Under the pieces are notes generated by a model. It had not been told where the DNA came from. It saw only the letters and a list, made by a program, of their open reading frames with translations, and made no database searches. This document shows positions 1,202 through 8,369 of a DNA stretch of 8,369 nt, in pieces. The number at the start of each line of letters is the position of its first letter. The first letter of the stretch is position 1. The stretch comes from a bacterium. GTDB taxonomy: Bacteria; AUK180. Position numbers and translations under genes: made by a program. The stretch covers positions 1-8,369 of the forward strand of contig JAUXGM010000091.1 of assembly GCA_030622125.1 (NCBI GenBank), read 5' to 3'.

Positions 1202-1525
1202 ATGAAAAGGAAGAAAACTCAAAAAAAAATAAAAAAAGAAGAATGTGAATTTTTGTACATTGATATTTTTGGGCATCCTTATTGTACAAAAAATATCAAA
1301 GAAGGAATGAATTGTGAATTCTTTATTCCATCGGAAGAATATCAAGAGATGAGAAGACAACTTAAAGAACAAGGCGTATTGGATGACAAAAATAGCCATT
1401 TCAAAGTTCCCTCAACATACAGATGTGCAAAATATGATAAATACGCCGACAAAAATGGTCATCTCCCACCCAAAATGCGTCCCAGACCGCCAAAGGGATT
1501 TAGTAGTATTACAGGAGAATTCTAA
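1202..1525 (+). CDS. Hypothetical four-cysteine basic protein, first gene of the peptide cluster
   Basis: The 107-residue protein begins after a strong ribosome binding site (AGGAGG at 1188-1193, 8 nt from the ATG). The N-terminus is very basic (KRKKTQKKIKK). Four cysteines follow at 15, 28, 38 and 75, in 'EECEF', 'HPYCTK', 'GMNCEFF' and 'YRCAKY', with His25 beside Cys28. The arrangement could bind a metal or form disulfides but matches no motif I can name. The tail is Pro/Arg/Lys-rich (about 89-98, 'PPKMRPRPPK'). There is no signal peptide or membrane segment. It lies 21 nt before the PqqD-like gene on the same strand, so it probably belongs to the peptide operon. Possible roles are an accessory, immunity or regulatory protein; none is shown by the sequence. 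It is long for a RiPP precursor but cannot be excluded as a second substrate. I do not recognise the family. Confidence 0.7.
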   Translation: MKRKKTQKKIKKEECEFLYIDIFGHPYCTKNIKEGMNCEFFIPSEEYQEMRRQLKEQGVLDDKNSHFKVPSTYRCAKYDKYADKNGHLPPKMRPRPPKGFSSITGEF

Positions 1526-1546
1526 TATAAAAAAAAGGATGCAAAT

Positions 1547-1843
1547 ATGTTCAAGCAAAATTTAAGATTCAGAATAGACGATGACGCAATGTTCACAAGA
1601 TTAGATGATGAAACCATTATATATAACAATAAGACCTCCTATTATTATACATTGAATGAAGTCGGTAGTGAGATATTTAAATTGATCTCGGATGATTTGG
1701 CGTTTGGTGAAATCGTAAAAACTATTTATGATAACCACAAAACCGATATTAGTATTGATGTAGTGAAAAACGATGTATTTGAAATACTAAATGACCTCCT
1801 TTCCGAGAAAATAATTGTAAAAGTAGATGATCATTCTAAATAA
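1547..1843 (+). CDS. PqqD-family peptide chaperone (RiPP leader-recognition protein)
   Basis: At 98 residues this has the length and pattern of PqqD-like winged-helix proteins. The hallmark is a beta-wing followed by a helix: 'DDETIIYNNKTSYYYTLNEV' (about 20-39), then 'GSEIFKLISD' (40-49), a helical linker, and a second helix pair ending near residue 93. In PqqD, lasso B1 and related proteins this fold is the RiPP recognition element: it binds the leader of the precursor as an added beta-strand and presents it to the modifying enzymes. A ribosome binding site (AAAGGAT, 1534-1540) precedes the ATG. Its 3' end overlaps the McjB-like gene by 17 nt, so translation is probably coupled. Here it most likely pairs with the radical SAM enzyme and the precursor at 3264-3416. 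The family assignment is firm; the exact client is inferred. Confidence 0.88.
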   Translation: MFKQNLRFRIDDDAMFTRLDDETIIYNNKTSYYYTLNEVGSEIFKLISDDLAFGEIVKTIYDNHKTDISIDVVKNDVFEILNDLLSEKIIVKVDDHSK

Positions 1844-2237
1844 AATCCTTATAAGAATAGAAATTATGATATATCTTGCCTTGATAGAAACTTTGTTTTT
1901 TTTTAATATTTCACTTAGAACTTCTGTACGCATTTTAAAGAAAATTCCTGTAATTAAATTTCACTCCAATGATGATCGCATTGTGTCATCAATAAATTGG
2001 GTTTTGTATAAAAAACTACTTGGACTGCATTTTTTCGTTGGGAACTGCATGAGATATAGTTGCTTGCTTTACTTATTCCTTAGCAAAGAATATGAAGATA
2101 TTTCTTTGTCTATTGGAGTGAAAAAGGAAAATGGGAGAATAAAGGCACATTGCTGGCTCGAAAAATGCAGCAAACTTTTTTATGAACCGCACACAACAAA
2201 GGTCAATTATAAAAAATTAGGAGAATTTAGAGGATGA
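1827..2237 (+). CDS. McjB/B2-like transglutaminase-fold leader peptidase
   Basis: This 136-residue protein matches the core of lasso-peptide B2 (McjB C-terminal) proteins, cysteine-protease-like enzymes that remove the leader. The segment 'GNCMRYSCLLYLFL' (72-85) carries the expected nucleophile Cys74. It is followed by 'SIGVKKENGRIKAHCWLEKC' (95-114), the family's GV...AHxWxE pattern with catalytic His108. The third catalytic residue, usually Asp 12 after the His, is Glu120. The N-terminal third is hydrophobic (about 14-30) and may be a membrane-associated or buried helix. The first ATG (1827) lies inside the PqqD-like gene. An ATG at 1866 (residue 14) is an alternative start, and neither has a strong ribosome binding site. 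The stop overlaps the radical SAM start as ATGA. It lacks a separate N-terminal RRE domain, which fits the stand-alone PqqD gene upstream. Confidence 0.82.
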   Translation: MIILNKILIRIEIMIYLALIETLFFFNISLRTSVRILKKIPVIKFHSNDDRIVSSINWVLYKKLLGLHFFVGNCMRYSCLLYLFLSKEYEDISLSIGVKKENGRIKAHCWLEKCSKLFYEPHTTKVNYKKLGEFRG

Positions 2238-3283
2238 AGATAATTAAAGATATAAAACACATACAAAATGAAATGATTGAAAAAAGGATACCGATATCCG
2301 TGAACATTGAACTCACTCATAGATGTAATTATAATTGTATTCATTGCTTGAGAGACATTAGAACGACACCGGAACTTTCTACGGAAGAAATTGTGGATAT
2401 TCTACATCAATTGAAGGAGGCGGGGACATTAGAACTTGCAATAACAGGTGGAGAGGCATTATTACGAGAAGATATATGGGAAATTCTTGATGAGGTTAAG
2501 AAGCTTAAATTTTCAACTACATTCTTTACAAATGGTTGGCTTGTAACGGAAGATGTTGCTGAACGGTTATCCAAATATAATTTGAGAAGTGTTGATATAA
2601 GCATCTATGGAATGGATCCGAAAATCCATGATAAGGTAACAACAGTTCACGGTTCATTCAATAAATTAATGGAAACAATTGATCTTTTACAAAAATATAA
2701 TGTTCCGATAAGGTTGAAAATGCTGCTTTTCAATTTCAATGTTGATGAATTACCAAAGGTTTACGAGTTTGCAATGCAAAAAAAGTTACCATTTTCATTT
2801 GATGAATTGATTTTCATTGCAGATTCCGGTTCGGCACATCCTCTAATGTATACTGTTTATGGAGGACAGATAAAATTCATAGAAAAATACCGTCTGAAGC
2901 TATCTTCAAGAGAAAGGATTTGGGTGGATTACAGTGTTGAAAAAAGATCGGGAGCAAGAATAATGTGCACCGCCGGAAGAACAACTGCCGCTATAACGCC
3001 AGATGGTTATTTGCTGCCTTGTATCGTTTGGAGAACCCAAATCGGTAATCTTAAAAAAACACAATTCAAGGTATTATGGAAAAACTCAAAAAAAATCAGA
3101 AAAATACTTGACATTAGTGATGAAAATTTTGTAAAATGTTTTACATGCAGATTAAAGGCTAATTGTCGGGTCTGTCCCGGAATGAATGAAACGGAATATA
3201 AAAATCCTTTCGTTCCAAGTCCACAGAAATGCAGGTTGACCGAAATTAAAACGGAGGTGCTTGATGAGTACAAACAGATATAG
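2234..3283 (+). CDS. Radical SAM/SPASM peptide-modifying enzyme
   Basis: The 349-residue protein has a classic radical SAM core. CNYNCIHC (Cys31, Cys35, Cys38) binds the 4Fe-4S cluster that cleaves S-adenosylmethionine, and 'ITGGEALLRED' (70-80) is the GGE SAM-binding strand. The C-terminal SPASM domain holds seven more cysteines in the expected layout: C245-x12-G258-x4-C263, then C302-x2-C305-x5-C311-x2-C314, and C333. They should bind one or two auxiliary clusters. SPASM enzymes next to a PqqD protein and a small precursor usually install thioether, C-C or related crosslinks on that peptide, and that is the likely role here. There is no built-in N-terminal RRE domain, consistent with the separate PqqD protein. 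AGGAG at 2219-2223 precedes the ATG, which overlaps the upstream stop. The last 20 nt overlap the precursor gene. The bond chemistry cannot be read from the sequence. Confidence 0.93.
   Translation: MKIIKDIKHIQNEMIEKRIPISVNIELTHRCNYNCIHCLRDIRTTPELSTEEIVDILHQLKEAGTLELAITGGEALLREDIWEILDEVKKLKFSTTFFTNGWLVTEDVAERLSKYNLRSVDISIYGMDPKIHDKVTTVHGSFNKLMETIDLLQKYNVPIRLKMLLFNFNVDELPKVYEFAMQKKLPFSFDELIFIADSGSAHPLMYTVYGGQIKFIEKYRLKLSSRERIWVDYSVEKRSGARIMCTAGRTTAAITPDGYLLPCIVWRTQIGNLKKTQFKVLWKNSKKIRKILDISDENFVKCFTCRLKANCRVCPGMNETEYKNPFVPSPQKCRLTEIKTEVLDEYKQI
3251..3259 (+). promoter_or_regulatory. Strong ribosome binding site of the precursor peptide gene
   Basis: ACGGAGGTG contains GGAGGT (3253-3258), 5 nt before the ATG at 3264 and inside the end of the radical SAM reading frame. 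It is the best Shine-Dalgarno match within the peptide cluster after the AGGAGG at 1188. It decides the start of this small gene and fits a need for a lot of precursor. Confidence 0.75.
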
Positions 3284-3416
3284 CAAACCGATACTTGTAA
3301 AATATGAAAAAGTGCGGGATGTTACTACCGCAAGTGTTATGGCGGAAGGAACTGCTAATGCAGCAGATTGCACACTGACAAGATGTACAAGTGAACCGCC
3401 AACAATAAAAGGCTAA
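3264..3416 (+). CDS. RiPP precursor peptide, 50 residues, with YxxPxL leader motif and two C-terminal cysteines
   Basis: This small gene overlaps the radical SAM gene by 20 nt and has a strong ribosome binding site. The N-terminal part, 'RYSKPILVKYEKVRDVTTA' (5-23), contains Tyr6-x-x-Pro9-x-Leu11, the motif by which lasso-type leaders dock on B1/PqqD recognition domains. A Gly/Ala-rich stretch (27-34, 'AEGTANAA') follows and would suit a leader/core boundary. The last 16 residues, 'DCTLTRCTSEPPTIKG', hold the only two cysteines (36 and 41, four residues between) with several Thr and one Ser. These are candidate sites for radical SAM thioether or other crosslinks (Cys, Thr) and for phosphorylation (Ser43, Thr). 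No lasso cyclase is encoded nearby, so a lasso fold is unlikely. The motif, size, position and neighbours together make the precursor role likely. Core boundaries and modification are inferred. Confidence 0.85.
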   Translation: MSTNRYSKPILVKYEKVRDVTTASVMAEGTANAADCTLTRCTSEPPTIKG

Positions 3417-3424
3417 AAGAATAA

Positions 3425-4404
3425 TTGAATAAATTAACCATTTTAAATACTACTTTACAACAACTTCAAGAAAAAGTAGTGTTAAATTTTTTTTTAAAAA
3501 ACCGTTTTCATTTTTAAATTTATCATTATATACAAACTCCCCCGACATTATAAAGGTATTAAAGAATTATTCCCCTGTTCAGGAATTTTCTAATAAATTA
3601 AATTTCAAGTTTTTTTTTTATGATACAAAGGGATTTTCTCTCGGATATACAATTAATCTTTCAGGTGAAGATAAAATTCATAGTGAAGCACTGTTTGATA
3701 TTTACTTGTATAATGATCTCTATTTTATTTTTCTGAATAAAAATTTTTATATTAAGATAGATATTGAAAATAAAGAGGTCTCAATCTTTGGCAATGTGAA
3801 TAAAAATTGGAACAAAAATTATCTGCAACAGTTTGTATTTACACCTATCATAGAAATACTTATGCGTTTAAACGGTTTTTTTTCGCTTCATGCAGGTGGA
3901 GTTTCAAAAGGCAAAGATTGTTTACTAATACTCGGCAACAGTGGCGTAGGAAAGACCCTTAATACCTTAATGTTTTTGAAAAATGGATATAAATTTATGG
4001 GAGATGATACGATATTTCTTGATAATTCATTAAATGTGTATCCATTTTTAAAACCGATACATCTTACAAAAAATTCTTTTAGATATTTGAATAATTTAAA
4101 ATCCGTGAATATTCCGAAGATAGACAAAGAAACATATTTTGTAGAAGATCTTTTATATAAAAAACAATATACAACACGATCAAAAAAAATAAAAGGGGTC
4201 TATTTTTTAGATAGTAAAAGGGATAAAAATTATATAAAGAAAATAAAAAAAAGCGATTGCTTTAAAAGAATACTTTCATATTCACTTGTACCGATATCAA
4301 AAAAGAGTAATTTGGAACAGATGAAGATCATTGAAGAACTCGCAAAAATACCTACCCATCAAGTTGGATTAAAAAACGGGGAGTTTTTAAAAGATGTCAT
4401 TTAA
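3425..4404 (+). CDS. HPr-kinase-like (HprK-related) kinase; start and N-terminal frame uncertain, apparent -1 frameshift near 3493-3502
   Basis: The C-terminal 232 codons (from TTG 3706) contain an HprK-type P-loop kinase core: 'SLHAGGV', then Walker A 'GNSGVGKT' (3934-3957), and 'YKFMGDDTIFL' with the paired aspartates typical of HPr kinases. Relatives in lasso-peptide clusters phosphorylate the precursor, and others accompany PqqD proteins in exopolysaccharide loci. The kinase frame stays open back to 3433 and its sequence there looks like real protein ('LGYTINLSGEDK'), but it has no ATG or GTG start. A TTG at 3425, 8 nt after the precursor stop, opens the neighbouring frame ('MNKLTILNTTLQQLQEKVV') and runs to TAA at 3515-3517. 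A -1 shift at T9A6 joins the two into about 326 residues, a normal length for such kinases. Otherwise the gene is broken or starts late at 3706. The last 11 nt overlap the ligase gene. Confidence 0.72.
3442..3495 (+). terminator. Terminator-like hairpin with T9 tract between precursor and kinase
   Basis: The arms 3446-3456 and 3473-3483 pair over 11 bp (perfect core ACTACTTT/AAAGTAGT plus one G-U and two A-U pairs). After a bulged A3445, three more pairs follow (3442-3444 with 3484-3486). The loop is 16 nt. A run of nine T (3487-3495) starts directly at the base of the stem. This is the layout of an intrinsic terminator, though the stem has only two G-C pairs and would be weak. Partial termination here would give much precursor mRNA and less kinase and ligase mRNA. 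It overlaps the proposed N-terminal coding part of the kinase. Confidence 0.5.
3493..3502 (+). other. Candidate slippage/-1 frameshift site
   Basis: Read in the frame of TTG 3425, the sequence is T TTA AAA AAC. It holds two overlapping X XXY YYZ heptamers (T TTA AAA and A AAA AAC), correctly phased for a -1 ribosomal shift. The T9 run just upstream (3487-3495) could also let RNA polymerase slip. Either event moves the reading into the long kinase frame. No clear stimulatory structure is seen downstream; the only hairpin lies upstream. A simple indel or assembly error in the homopolymer would look the same. Confidence 0.4.
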
Positions 4405-6853
4405 TAAAAATTTTTTTATTACTATTTCTTTCTTGTTCATATCAATAATCATATTAAACTTTCAGGTTCATTTTACTGGGAATCTCATTTTAATTTTTAT
4501 TATATACATTTTTGTGTTCGGTTTGCCGAGTGCGTTTGTATTTAAAGATGCAACGGATTATTATCTAATCACCGCACTTTCCATTTTGCCTTTTATATTC
4601 TGGTTCAAAACACATAATCCATATATAATAAAGACACCGATATTTTATATTTTTATGACATTAGCACTAATTTCATTTATTAGAACGAAGAAAAAATTGA
4701 TGTTCAATTTTTTTGATATCATTGTTTTTAGCGGACTTATCTTTATGTTCATATATTCATCTATCGGTAAGTATTATAATGCAAGATTTTCGGAACTTTC
4801 CATTCAATTAAATAGTTTTTTTCTGGTTTATTTGTTGGTTCGATTTTCCAAAAGTAAGACAAAAATAGCAAATTTTTTGATCTATATCGGAACCATTATA
4901 TCACTATACGGCATAATTCAATGGATGGGACAGGATCCTTTTGTTCCAGGCGAACGATTTAGTATCCCCTTCAAATCAAGAATAATAGGAACGCTTGGAA
5001 ATCCCAATTTTTTTTCCGGCTACCTTATCGGCATTTTTTCTCTGACTTTTTATCTATTTTTACAGAATAAAAAAAAACTATTCCTTTTTGCTTCTATAAT
5101 TCAGTTCATTGCACTTTTAGCAACGGGAACTCGAGGAGTTTTTATTGCATTTCTCTTTTCTCTTTTATTACTCGTCATTTACAACAAAAATATTAAAAAG
5201 TTTATCATACCAATTCTATTATTTATTGCATTGCTTTTTATTGTTCCATCAATGCGACAAAGGATGATCACTGCTCCATCACAAATATTGAATAAAAAAG
5301 GTTCTCTCGGGCAAAGGGAATTGATGTGGAAGACAGCCTTATCAATGATAAAAAACCGCCCATTAGGAATTGGGTTAGCCGGATACAGATTATTTTATCC
5401 TGATTACCAGGGCAGGAATTTAGATGATCCTGCTTTTTTAATTCTTTCAACACATGCCAGACATCCGCACAACCAATGTTTGGAATGGGCTACTGCCGGT
5501 TCTATCTTTCTCTTTTTTTGGTATATATTTTTAGGTATTTTTGTAATAATGATTTTTTCAAAAATAAAGGATAAAAGCTATTATGCTGCCTTTGCTTTTT
5601 CATTTATTGTAATCTTTATACACAATTTGATATCAGTGGTTATCAACTATGAACCACCACTTTCAAATCTTGGGTTTATGTTGGCAGGAATTTCATTTAT
5701 ACTGGGAAAAGAAAAATTCAAGATCAGCAAGAATTTTCTCCTGATCCCATTGATTCTTAATATTATATTTATTCCAATGTGGTGGAAGAAAGTTATCGGT
5801 AGCTATTATTTCGCTCAGGGCGTCGGTTATATCAATCTTTATCAAGAAAGACAGGATCCGAATTTCTTAAAAGATGCAAATAAAAAATTAAAACAAAGTT
5901 CACGGTATGATAATCGCTTCGTTAATACATGGTATAGAATAGGCAACAGCTATACCCTTCTTGCAAAAAAAGCCGGTGAAGAGAAAGAAAGGATAAAATA
6001 TCTTGAAAAAGCAGTTAAGTATCTTAAAAAAGCAGATTCTCTTAAACCTTCCTATTATGAAATAAGATACAACATTGGACTTGCATTGATAAATTTGAGA
6101 AGATACGATGAAGCCGACAGATATTTAAAAAGTGCAATGGAAATAGAGCCGTATAAATTAAATATAATAAGGCAATGGTGCGAACTTTTTATAGGCAAAA
6201 ATCGAGATCTGTCAAATAAAAAAAACCTTTCGGAAATAGAAAAAAGATTAAATTATCTTAGAAAAAGTATTGAATTACAGGAAAAGTCTTTAAACTATTT
6301 GAGTGGAGGCAAGAAGGATATTTCAAATAGTGAAATTTTGACATCAAAATTATATTTGTCCAAGCAATTGGGATTTATTAACTATAAAACTGAAAATTAC
6401 AAAAACGCAGCAGATTATTTTTTAAAAGGGTATAATATTGCAAAGTCGGTAAAAAAGGAAAATGAGATAAAATTATTTCTAAATAATCTTCTTGCGATTG
6501 CAAGGAGGCAAAAAGATATTTCACTGGAAAAGAAATATTTGGATTTGCTTATGAACCATTTCCCACATTCTGCTGAGGTTTATTTAGAAAAAGCAATTTA
6601 TAGTATTAAATATGGTAATCAAAAACTCGGAATTGATATGATCAACAAACTTTTAGAAAGAGCAAAAGAAGAGAAAGTAAAAAACAGAATCTATACCCGT
6701 ATATTAAAAAATGGAGACCTCTCTATCTTTAAAAATCTAAATTGTTCTTCAAAGATAAAAACTCTTGCAAAATATATTGAAGTCAACGGTGTAAACAAAA
6801 ATGATCTGAATAAAAAATTCCCAACTCTAAAGGAGATCATAAATGGATTATGA
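4394..6853 (+). CDS. O-antigen ligase/polymerase (Wzy_C family) membrane protein with C-terminal TPR domain
   Basis: The 819-residue protein has about 12-13 hydrophobic segments up to residue 465, then a soluble helical tail. The membrane part carries O-antigen ligase/Wzy signatures: 'GTLGNPNFFSGYL' (199-211), 'TGTRG' (244-248), and a large periplasmic loop (about 285-368) with 'NRPLGIGLAGYRLFYP' and 'HARHPHNQCLEW', whose His/Asn cluster matches the family's conserved loop. These enzymes join or polymerise undecaprenyl-linked glycans outside the inner membrane. Some relatives glycosylate proteins. The tail (about 480-760) has TPR-like helix pairs, clearest at 'YNIGLALINLRRYDEADRYL' (559-578), probably for partner binding in the periplasm. 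The ATG at 4394 has GGGGAG at 4379-4384 and overlaps the kinase end by 11 nt. The end overlaps mazG by 11 nt. Acceptor and donor cannot be told from the sequence. Confidence 0.88.
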   Translation: MSFNKNFFITISFLFISIIILNFQVHFTGNLILIFIIYIFVFGLPSAFVFKDATDYYLITALSILPFIFWFKTHNPYIIKTPIFYIFMTLALISFIRTKKKLMFNFFDIIVFSGLIFMFIYSSIGKYYNARFSELSIQLNSFFLVYLLVRFSKSKTKIANFLIYIGTIISLYGIIQWMGQDPFVPGERFSIPFKSRIIGTLGNPNFFSGYLIGIFSLTFYLFLQNKKKLFLFASIIQFIALLATGTRGVFIAFLFSLLLLVIYNKNIKKFIIPILLFIALLFIVPSMRQRMITAPSQILNKKGSLGQRELMWKTALSMIKNRPLGIGLAGYRLFYPDYQGRNLDDPAFLILSTHARHPHNQCLEWATAGSIFLFFWYIFLGIFVIMIFSKIKDKSYYAAFAFSFIVIFIHNLISVVINYEPPLSNLGFMLAGISFILGKEKFKISKNFLLIPLILNIIFIPMWWKKVIGSYYFAQGVGYINLYQERQDPNFLKDANKKLKQSSRYDNRFVNTWYRIGNSYTLLAKKAGEEKERIKYLEKAVKYLKKADSLKPSYYEIRYNIGLALINLRRYDEADRYLKSAMEIEPYKLNIIRQWCELFIGKNRDLSNKKNLSEIEKRLNYLRKSIELQEKSLNYLSGGKKDISNSEILTSKLYLSKQLGFINYKTENYKNAADYFLKGYNIAKSVKKENEIKLFLNNLLAIARRQKDISLEKKYLDLLMNHFPHSAEVYLEKAIYSIKYGNQKLGIDMINKLLERAKEEKVKNRIYTRILKNGDLSIFKNLNCSSKIKTLAKYIEVNGVNKNDLNKKFPTLKEIINGL

Positions 6854-7523
6854 CAAGGCAATAGAAAATACAGCAAAATTACTTGAAGTTATTGATGAAT
6901 TGCTTGGGAAAAACGGTTGTCCCTGGGATAGAAAGCAGACAACGAATTCATTGACAAAAGATATTATAGAAGAGACTTATGAACTTGTTGATGCTATTGA
7001 GAGAAAAAATATTGAGAGCATTACGGAGGAATTAGGCGATCTCTTTTTTTTAATTCTTTTTGTCGGACATCTTGTAGAAAAGGAATATGATGCTGAATTT
7101 CATACATCCGTTAAAGGTGTAATCGATAAATTAGTAAGACGTCACCCACATGTTTTTAGCGGATTAAAAATAAAAGATGAAAATGAAATTTTAGTAAACT
7201 GGGAAAAAATAAAAAAAACGGAAAAACCCAGGAAAAAGATATTGGAAGGTATTCCGCTTCATCTTCCCGCACTTTTAAAAGCGTATCGGATACAGGAAAA
7301 ACTGGAACGATTTCAAGAAAAAAAGGAAGAACTTGTTCCAAGAGAAAAAATTCAGGAACTTTCTCAAAAATTAGAACACATATTTACTGTGAAAAATAAA
7401 GAAATAGCGGAAAAGAAATATGGAGAATTTCTTTTTGAATTAGTTAATGCAGCACGAAGATCCGGTATTGAAAGTGAAAAAGCATTACAAAATGAAAACG
7501 AACTTCATTTGAAAAAAGAATGA
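6843..7523 (+). CDS. mazG: Nucleoside triphosphate pyrophosphohydrolase MazG
   Basis: This 226-residue enzyme hydrolyses NTPs to NMP and pyrophosphate. The N-terminal domain is canonical: 'GCPWDRKQT' (25-33), the metal-binding helix 'IEETYELVD' (42-50, E43/E44/E47), and 'EELGDLFF' (62-69, E63 and D66), which completes the EExxE...ExxD active site, then 'RRHPHVF' (99-105). A linker with 'ILEGIPLHLPALLKAYRIQEK' character joins a shorter second domain. There 'EKKYGEFLFELVNAARRSG' (190-208) lines up with the usual 'EEEMGDLLFATVNLARHLG', but the key acids are changed (Lys and Glu for Glu and Asp) and the EExxE helix is lost. The second domain therefore looks inactive. AGGAG at 6831-6835 sets the ATG, which overlaps the ligase end by 11 nt. 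It is probably a housekeeping gene in the same transcript and is not part of a mazEF toxin pair. Confidence 0.93.
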   Translation: MDYDKAIENTAKLLEVIDELLGKNGCPWDRKQTTNSLTKDIIEETYELVDAIERKNIESITEELGDLFFLILFVGHLVEKEYDAEFHTSVKGVIDKLVRRHPHVFSGLKIKDENEILVNWEKIKKTEKPRKKILEGIPLHLPALLKAYRIQEKLERFQEKKEELVPREKIQELSQKLEHIFTVKNKEIAEKKYGEFLFELVNAARRSGIESEKALQNENELHLKKE

Positions 7524-7537
7524 AATTTATATATAAT
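7509..7537 (+). promoter_or_regulatory. Predicted sigma70 promoter for the dehydratase gene
   Basis: TTGAAA (7509-7514, inside the end of mazG) and TATAAT (7532-7537) are 17 bp apart, an almost perfect sigma70 pair. The start point would be near 7544, only about 11 nt before the ATG at 7555, with the ribosome binding site (GGAGG, 7546-7550) at the very 5' end of the mRNA. That short leader and the AT-rich background limit confidence. Read-through from mazG (31-nt gap) is the alternative. Confidence 0.4.
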
Positions 7538-7554
7538 ACAATTTTGGAGGTATA

Positions 7555-8369
7555 ATGAAGGTTCTAATAACAGGGATCACAGGATTTGCGGGAAGCCACC
7601 TTGCAGATTACATATTGAAAGAGCACCCCGAAGCAGAAATATACGGATTTAAAAGATGGAGATCAAGGGATGAAAACATTCTTCATTTATTAAATAAGGT
7701 AAAATTTTATGATGTTGATGTAAAAGATTTTACAGCAGTAAATAGGTTTATTCAGGAGATCAAGCCAAATAAGATTTTCCATCTTGCAGCACAAAGTTTT
7801 GTTCCGACTTCATGGAAATCACCGGCTGAAACACTTACAACCAACATTATTGGCGAACTCAATCTCTTTGAAGCGATAAGACAACATAATTTGATAAAGG
7901 ATACAAGGATACAGCTTGCCTGTTCATCCGAGGAATATGGAATGGTATATGATAATGAACTTCCAATAAAGGAAACAAACCCATTAAGACCGCTTTCACC
8001 GTATGCCGTCTCTAAGATTGGTCAGGATTATCTTGGATACCAATATTACAAGAGTTATGGCATTCAAGCGGTACGAACAAGAACATTCAACCATTCCGGT
8101 CCGCGCCGCGGAGATGTTTTCGTTATATCTACTTTTTCAAAGCAGATCGCAATGATAGAGAATGATATTCAAAAACCTATTATTTATGTCGGAAATCTTG
8201 ATGCAAAAAGGGATTTTACGGATGTAAGGGATGTTGTAAGAGCATACTGGATCGCACTTGAAAAATGTGATTCGGGGGAAGAATATAATATTGCAACAGG
8301 TGTTGCTCACACAATAAAAGAGGTATTGGATATACTGCTTTCATACTCAAATAAAAAGATAAAAATTGA
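7555..8369 (+). CDS. GDP-mannose 4,6-dehydratase-like SDR enzyme (3' truncated)
   Basis: The first 271 residues of an extended short-chain dehydrogenase/reductase are present, and the frame runs off the window. 'TGITGFAGSH' (6-15; Gly7, Gly10, Gly13) is the dinucleotide-binding loop and 'HLAAQSFVPTSW' (76-87) the conserved strand after it. 'SSEEYG' (124-129) holds Ser and Glu, and 'YAVSK' (150-154) the catalytic Tyr and Lys. 'FNHSGPRR' (178-185) and 'RDFTDVRDVVRAY' (219-231) are typical of GDP-mannose enzymes. A Glu at 126 fits the dehydratase (which converts GDP-D-mannose to GDP-4-keto-6-deoxymannose); the related 4-reductases (RMD) usually have Asp there. It would be cytoplasmic and would feed deoxysugar precursors to the surface glycan handled by the ligase upstream. 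GGAGG at 7546-7550 fixes the start. The family is secure; dehydratase versus reductase is less so. Confidence 0.85.
   Translation, partial: MKVLITGITGFAGSHLADYILKEHPEAEIYGFKRWRSRDENILHLLNKVKFYDVDVKDFTAVNRFIQEIKPNKIFHLAAQSFVPTSWKSPAETLTTNIIGELNLFEAIRQHNLIKDTRIQLACSSEEYGMVYDNELPIKETNPLRPLSPYAVSKIGQDYLGYQYYKSYGIQAVRTRTFNHSGPRRGDVFVISTFSKQIAMIENDIQKPIIYVGNLDAKRDFTDVRDVVRAYWIALEKCDSGEEYNIATGVAHTIKEVLDILLSYSNKKIKI

Follow-up and report, generated by a model that had tools for sequence, protein, structure and literature searches.

Among the described ribosomally synthesized and post-translationally modified peptides (RiPPs), phosphorylated lasso peptides are encoded by clusters such as paeninodin and bsf, which combine a PqqD-like protein (B1), a leader peptidase (B2), a cyclase (C) and a kinase. 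Lasso leaders possess a YxxPxL motif at positions −17 to −12 and, mostly, Thr at −2 (PMC10368454), and lasso kinases require a His-Lys-Asp-Asp set (PMC9266682). One sactipeptide system (StsC; PMC12710340) already combines a PqqD-like protein, a radical S-adenosylmethionine (SAM) enzyme with a SPASM domain and a YxxP-type precursor. In addition, lasso-type PqqDs adjoining radical SAM enzymes have been recorded with RRE-Finder (PMC7470986). Here, we describe a locus in which a B2 peptidase and a kinase accompany a radical SAM/SPASM enzyme. The window that we analysed covers the whole of contig G000:C81 (8369 bases), which belongs to a 2.08-Mb metagenome-assembled genome of an uncultured phylum; Candidatus Mcinerneyibacteriota is the name of one of the nearest public relatives (L026). 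On the + strand of the window, five genes that overlap or nearly overlap encode a PqqD-like protein, a B2 peptidase, a radical SAM/SPASM enzyme, a precursor of 50 amino acids (aa) and an HprK-like kinase. To our knowledge, B2 peptidases are otherwise described as lasso-peptide enzymes. All five parts and their close packing had been proposed from the letters of the window; family matches and, for the precursor, conservation in six genomes confirmed this original prediction.

We compared the locus with the closest described systems. With the phosphorylated lasso clusters it shares a discrete B1, a B2, the position of the YxxPxL motif, Thr at −2 (present in most of those clusters) and an HprK-like kinase with the His-Lys-Asp-Asp set. 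In contrast, the window encodes a SPASM enzyme instead of the cyclase C, the first acidic residue of its predicted core is at position 6, a C-terminal Ser is absent and the kinase gene is split between frames. With StsC and SkfB it shares a separate PqqD-like protein (StsC), a YxxP-type leader, a SPASM/twitch radical SAM enzyme and a Cys-containing core. However, the window adds a B2 peptidase and a kinase, and its maturase and precursor gave no family-level match above curated cut-offs. The ranthipeptides (CteB and PapB) likewise have a SPASM enzyme, core cysteines and acidic residues usable as acceptors, whereas in the window the RiPP recognition element (RRE) is a separate protein, the core is unlike SCIFF or CX3D repeats and the crosslink is a predicted one. 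Because the StsC combination was known, the suggestion that the locus may represent an undescribed class was overstated. In the literature, we found no description of a B2 peptidase with a radical SAM enzyme, nor of frameshifting or slippage in a RiPP kinase; these negative results are weak because subscription papers were mostly outside the coverage.

We consider it rather probable that the five genes form one compact RiPP pathway, in which the kinase would be kept low. In the presumed order of steps, B1 would bind the YxxPxL leader of the precursor, and the SPASM enzyme would then install one or two crosslinks in the core, most likely thioethers from two invariant cysteines. The kinase would phosphorylate a Ser or Thr of the core, for which core position 2 and the invariant Thr of the EGT sequence are candidates. 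B2, activated by leader-bound B1, would cut after Thr-Xaa (with Thr at −2) and free a peptide of about 28 residues, and no lasso ring would be formed. In the family of the window, the kinase would be completed only when the polymerase or the ribosome slips at a run of nine Ts (T9), with a net shift to the −1 frame. The kinase gene of the sister family is preceded instead by a hairpin that resembles a terminator.

Six copies of the cluster, all from metagenome assemblies, were compared: that of the window's genome (G000), those of G004, G001 and G003, which belong to the same family, and those of G005 and G006, which belong to a second family of the same class. The order PqqD-B2-radical SAM-precursor-kinase is identical in G000, G004, G001, G003 and G005. 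The same order was found in G006, in which the contig stops just inside the kinase gene. Thus, the five-gene neighbourhood recurs in other genomes and all six copies retain a strongly conserved small peptide, as expected if the original prediction of a RiPP cluster is correct.

The precursor gene (3264..3416, + strand) encodes MSTNRYSKPILVKYEKVRDVTT/ASVMAEGTANAADCTLTRCTSEPPTIKG, in which the slash marks the predicted cleavage site. This peptide matched no family in library scans. In the six copies, the invariant leader residues are Y, K, P, L, K, Y and T; those of the core are E-G-T, C, L, R-C, E-P and K-G. The leader fits the lasso geometry exactly: the YxxPxL motif (YSKPIL; 3279..3296, + strand) begins with Tyr6 at −17, has Pro9 at −14 and ends with Leu11 at −12, and Thr21 is at −2. 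From this Thr rule and the conservation, cleavage is predicted between Thr22 and Ala23, which would give a core peptide of 28 aa (3330..3413, + strand). Thr at −2, in other words at Leu+10, was found in all seven precursors that adjoin both a SPASM and a B2 gene (the six copies and L031). L031, whose leader reads YKKYELKKYLTIADLTK, comes from another lineage, and in the maturase tree its enzyme stands apart from the others. At loci without B2, Thr at −2 was found in about 1 of 25 hand-picked radical-SAM precursors (the exception is L038); these counts are not independent by descent. Because the geometry is exact and Thr at −2 co-occurs with B2, removal of the leader by B2 is well supported at the sequence level, and the leader cleavage assumed in the original prediction stands. 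The core is nearly fixed and is encoded once per genome as far as seen, which suggests a product that is more cofactor- or signal-like than a bacteriocin.

B1 is a PqqD-like RRE of 98 aa (1547..1843, + strand; PF05402, 2.6e-9; NF033536 lasso_PqqD, 5.4e-10). Its gene has the same position in all six genomes, and the 3′ end overlaps the start of the B2 gene. The B2 gene (1827..2237, + strand) encodes a transglutaminase-like leader peptidase of 136 aa, assigned by NF033537, PF13471 and an alignment of homologues. Some observations weigh against this assignment. The family scores are borderline (32.3 bits against a cut-off of 33 for NF033537 lasso_biosyn_B2, and 26.3 against 26 for PF13471 Transglut_core3). 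An AlphaFold2 model (pLDDT 86.9) matched solved structures only weakly (Foldseek E 0.2 at best, VIA Z ≤5.6); these matches are transglutaminase-like or papain-like cysteine proteases and are not decisive. A sequence profile of B2 gave no match to solved structures. Despite the borderline scores, the assignment is backed because a Cys-His-Glu/Asp set is conserved in seven homologues: Cys74 and His108 are invariant, and Glu120, at His+12, is Glu or Asp. The McjB/B2-like peptidase of the original prediction is thus retained on its catalytic-type residues, with family scores at the threshold. A PqqD-B2 pair was also observed in L162 (reverse strand 2981-3653), in a second genome of the phylum of L031; neither a SPASM gene nor a cyclase gene follows it there.

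The maturase gene (2234..3283, + strand) encodes a radical SAM/SPASM peptide maturase of 349 aa (PF04055, 4.9e-27; PF13186, 1.7e-8). The radical SAM motif is C31-x3-C35-x2-C38, and the SPASM cysteines are at positions 245, 263, 302, 305, 311, 314 and 333. All ten cysteines are invariant in six homologues, and an eighth SPASM cysteine near C245 is absent; the relatives are 44-68% identical to the window's enzyme. Among solved sequences, SkfB was the best match and PqqE the second. In SkfB and CteB, an auxiliary cluster has an open site that can bind a substrate Cys; PqqE and SuiB lack such a site (PMC8326336). Judging from anSME and CteB, the seven SPASM cysteines may leave one auxiliary cluster open in the window's enzyme. 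The core of the precursor follows the pattern EGTx5CxLxRCxxEPxxxKG, in which C36 and C41 are invariant in the six copies, like the cysteines that donate thioethers in sactipeptides and ranthipeptides.

Because an open cluster is predicted, two core cysteines are invariant and the core contains no aromatic residue, thioether formation is the likeliest chemistry and, on these sequence features, probably the one that is used. SPASM enzymes can perform several chemistries, of which thioether formation is only one, and this weighs against the assignment. For example, the enzyme might form a C-C or C-O crosslink, epimerise a residue or introduce another change at Glu-Gly-Thr, Arg or Lys-Gly, with the cysteines joined in a disulfide. 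The second place of PqqE among the solved matches fits this possibility, as does the EG sequence, which is retained in the precursor of L031 and also in some precursors of L032 that contain no Cys. However, EG is missing from other L032 paralogues, which weakens it as a universal modification site. Moreover, both cysteines are invariant in the six copies, the core lacks the aromatic residue that cyclophane chemistry would need, and an open cluster is suggested by the seven SPASM cysteines. We regard a chemistry other than thioether formation as possible but doubtful. The same features of the precursor bear on the question of a lasso ring. Lasso cores possess Asp or Glu at position 7-9. Given cleavage after Thr(−2)-Xaa, position 6 holds the first acidic core residue in each of the six copies, and this further supports a product that is not a lasso. 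No lasso cyclase was found in the window; in the three relatives whose contigs are longest, the cluster has none up to about 10 kb away either. One could still argue that this is an aberrant lasso cluster: the cyclase gene would lie at another place in the genome, its product would make a lasso together with B1, B2 and the kinase, and the SPASM enzyme would tailor the peptide. The leader with its YxxPxL motif at −17 to −12 and Thr at −2, the PqqD-like B1, the B2 with its Cys-His-Asp-type triad and the kinase are indeed all lasso-type in appearance, and the window's genome contains two genes with an Asn_synthase domain (PF00733). However, neither gene is on the contig of the cluster, and their neighbours are glycosyltransferase-, flippase- and sugar-nucleotide-type genes, which are of the surface-polysaccharide type. 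Taken with the missing cyclase and the acidic residue at position 6, this makes an aberrant lasso cluster highly improbable. Thus, a non-lasso product, as originally predicted, is supported by the sequences.

The kinase body has an HprK/PEPCK fold and lies in the −1 frame (3487..4404, + strand; 305 aa from the slip site). Its family matches are TIGR04352 (2e-6) and PF07475 (3e-4). The AlphaFold2 model (pLDDT 80.6) matched PEPCK with a VIA Z of 14.7 (residues 5-305, 256 residues at 4.5 Å) and HprK/P with a VIA Z of 12.4 (127 residues at 2.6 Å). The window's kinase possesses His135, Lys156, Asp173 and Asp174, and the full set is present in four of five kinases. All six copies have Ser or Thr as the second core residue, and in the BsfA precursor the phosphorylated residue is Ser3 (PMC10368454). 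A core Ser or Thr near the N-terminus is therefore a possible candidate for the kinase target. Two findings run counter to a lasso-type kinase reaction. The kinase of G005 (L026) has Asp-Glu in place of Asp-Asp. Furthermore, the usual target of lasso kinases is a C-terminal Ser, whereas all the precursors end in Lys-Gly.

The original prediction overlooked a frame break in the kinase gene at T9; the gene is not a single open frame. The gene starts with TTG at 3425, continues in the −1 frame after the T9 run and ends at 4404. Its zero-frame 5′ part (3425..3517, + strand) encodes MNKLTILNTTLQQLQEKVVLNFFLKNRFHF before a stop codon, and the slip site, T9-AAAAAAC, spans 3487..3502 (T9 run, 3487-3495; + strand). 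The kinase is split between frames in G000, G004, G001 and G003 (three genera; the other loci are L004, L005 and L006). In these four genomes, a matching short frame begins no more than about 15 bases 3′ of the stop codon of the precursor gene and closes shortly past the conserved T9AA[AG]AAAC, and the phase of the slip site in the zero frame is the same (NNT TTT TTT TTA A[AG]A AAC). In samples of 180 kb, 234 kb and 210 kb, T9AA[AG]AAAC occurred exactly once each; T runs of at least nine are rare in samples of 180-234 kb per genome (3 in G004 and 6 in G003). Because the kinases have diverged between genera (about 32-37% identity) with synonymous sites at or near saturation, the T9 run has been retained by selection. 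The kinase itself is under purifying selection: between G004 and G001, the nonsynonymous rate (dN) is 0.020 and the synonymous rate (dS) is 0.153 (dN/dS ~0.13). These sequence comparisons indicate programmed −1 slippage at T9.

T_TTT_TTA within the site matches U_UUU_UUA, a known −1 ribosomal slip heptamer (PMC5009743). No RNA structure common to the four genomes was found after the slip site (z 0.24, −1.0, −1.6 and −3.3). A point against programmed slippage is that the evidence comes from three independent lineages of assembled metagenomes. Nine Ts without a common downstream structure favour transcriptional slippage over classical stimulated ribosomal frameshifting, so the slippage is probably transcriptional rather than ribosomal. 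The transcriptional slippage genes of Shigella (mxiE and spa; PMC5009743) share the homopolymer slippage and the frame switch for an extended product. In the window, however, the gene is a RiPP-cluster kinase, and the slippage is deduced from sequence.

The frame break could instead be an assembly error or the mark of a decayed gene. T runs are error-prone and the sequences are all metagenome assemblies. However, an identical T9 with its flanks was found in four assemblies from three genera, other T9 and T10 runs of the same assemblies sit in open frames, the kinase motifs are intact and the dN/dS value is that of a constrained gene. We judge error or decay to be very improbable. It is also unlikely, if slightly less so, that translation of the kinase begins at an internal or unusual codon 3′ of T9 and that the 30-aa zero-frame open reading frame is a separate peptide. 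Translation could begin at TTG 3706 of the window and, in the relatives, at other internal starts. However, the −1 frame contains no ATG, GTG or TTG for the first 73, 43, 43 and 25 codons after the slip in G000, G004, G001 and G003, respectively, so that the internal starts differ in position. Because the predicted model places residues 5-73 after the slip within the PEPCK-like fold, and the first start available in the window is codon 74, such starts would cut the fold and strands of the domain would be lost. Moreover, the FFFKK.. residues that follow T9 in the −1 frame are conserved, and the kinase of G005 is full-length in a single frame.

Programmed slippage at T9 would restrict the kinase in one family; the second family has another element near the same position. 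In G005 and G006, a hairpin followed by T8 or T9, terminator-like by eye, precedes the kinase start directly (AAGCGGTCGACAGACCGCTTTTTTTT and AAGCGGTCTTTTGACCGCTTTTTTTTT; L106 ~5205-5245 and L107 ~5355-5395). As judged from the sequences, the slip run and the hairpin would each lower kinase output relative to the precursor.

Clusters of PqqD, SPASM enzyme, YxKPxL precursor and HprK-like kinase without B2 are present in Omnitrophota, Desulfobacterota and others (L032, L041, L039, L047 and L044). They differ from the window's cluster in that B2 and Thr at −2 are absent, the cores are variable and there are sometimes several precursors; several of them carry signal-peptidase-like proteins instead of B2. 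In the maturase tree, L032 and L053 form the nearest outgroup (support 90/90). The L032 precursors share a KYxKIKRIQAASVAEG-like stretch. A precursor search in 285 genomes of the phylum of L032 found only the genome of L032 and one other, both of the kind without B2. The tree requires two changes for B2 recruitment, and a single origin is still possible. The window's kind probably arose when B2 joined an existing kinase-bearing radical-SAM RiPP type. In Omnitrophota, we also observed PqqD, SPASM and kinase genes with several tandem YxKPxL precursors in L032 (10965-11919) and L153 (genome G365); these precursors have variable cores and a common K[IV]KRI stretch. Furthermore, in L039, L044, L047, L020 and L013, which are from different phyla, a precursor with an EEVLAxGCK-type stretch lies beside SPASM and HprK-like genes, and several of these loci also have PqqD and signal-peptidase-like genes. 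The EEVLAxGCK-type loci are possibly one wide, uncharacterised radical-SAM RiPP family.

The original prediction placed the cluster at 1202-4404. Its main part stands, with the cluster beginning at 1547. The gene at 1202-1525 was rejected as a member because it is present only in G000 and G002, and G002 has no cluster; it encodes a Cys-containing protein of 107 aa, which is not PqqD and is 58% identical to its G002 counterpart. Because the window is the whole contig, flanks beyond it were readable in the relatives only. In five relatives (L023-L025, L106 and L107), a BMP lipoprotein gene and a nucleoside-type ATP-binding cassette (ABC) ATPase gene, with no adjacent permeases, lie directly upstream of PqqD. 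These genes were rejected as a necessary part of the system, since the window's genome is without any Bmp or BPD_transp_2 gene. On the 3′ side of the kinase (4394-8367), the window encodes an O-antigen-ligase/tetratricopeptide repeat (TPR) protein, MazG and a GDP-mannose-dehydratase-like protein. G004, G001 and G003 likewise have the O-antigen-ligase/TPR and MazG genes in this order after the kinase, and G004 and G001 have the dehydratase gene as well.

The occurrence of B2 with the Thr(−2) rule in a radical SAM cluster without a cyclase suggests that the leader removal of one RiPP class can be combined with the core chemistry of another. Genome mining that reads B1 and B2 as a sign of a lasso peptide would misfile such clusters. 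As far as we found, no earlier case has been made for programmed slippage in a gene of a RiPP pathway, so that the T9 frame break would be the first. It is a tentative but plausible view that the locus represents a phylum-wide family, in which a lasso leader peptidase was recruited to a radical-SAM product, the near-invariant core suggests a housekeeping role and the kinase is made only via slippage at T9. Together, the T9 break and the hairpin of the sister family lead us to propose that the amount of kinase has to stay small compared with that of its substrate.

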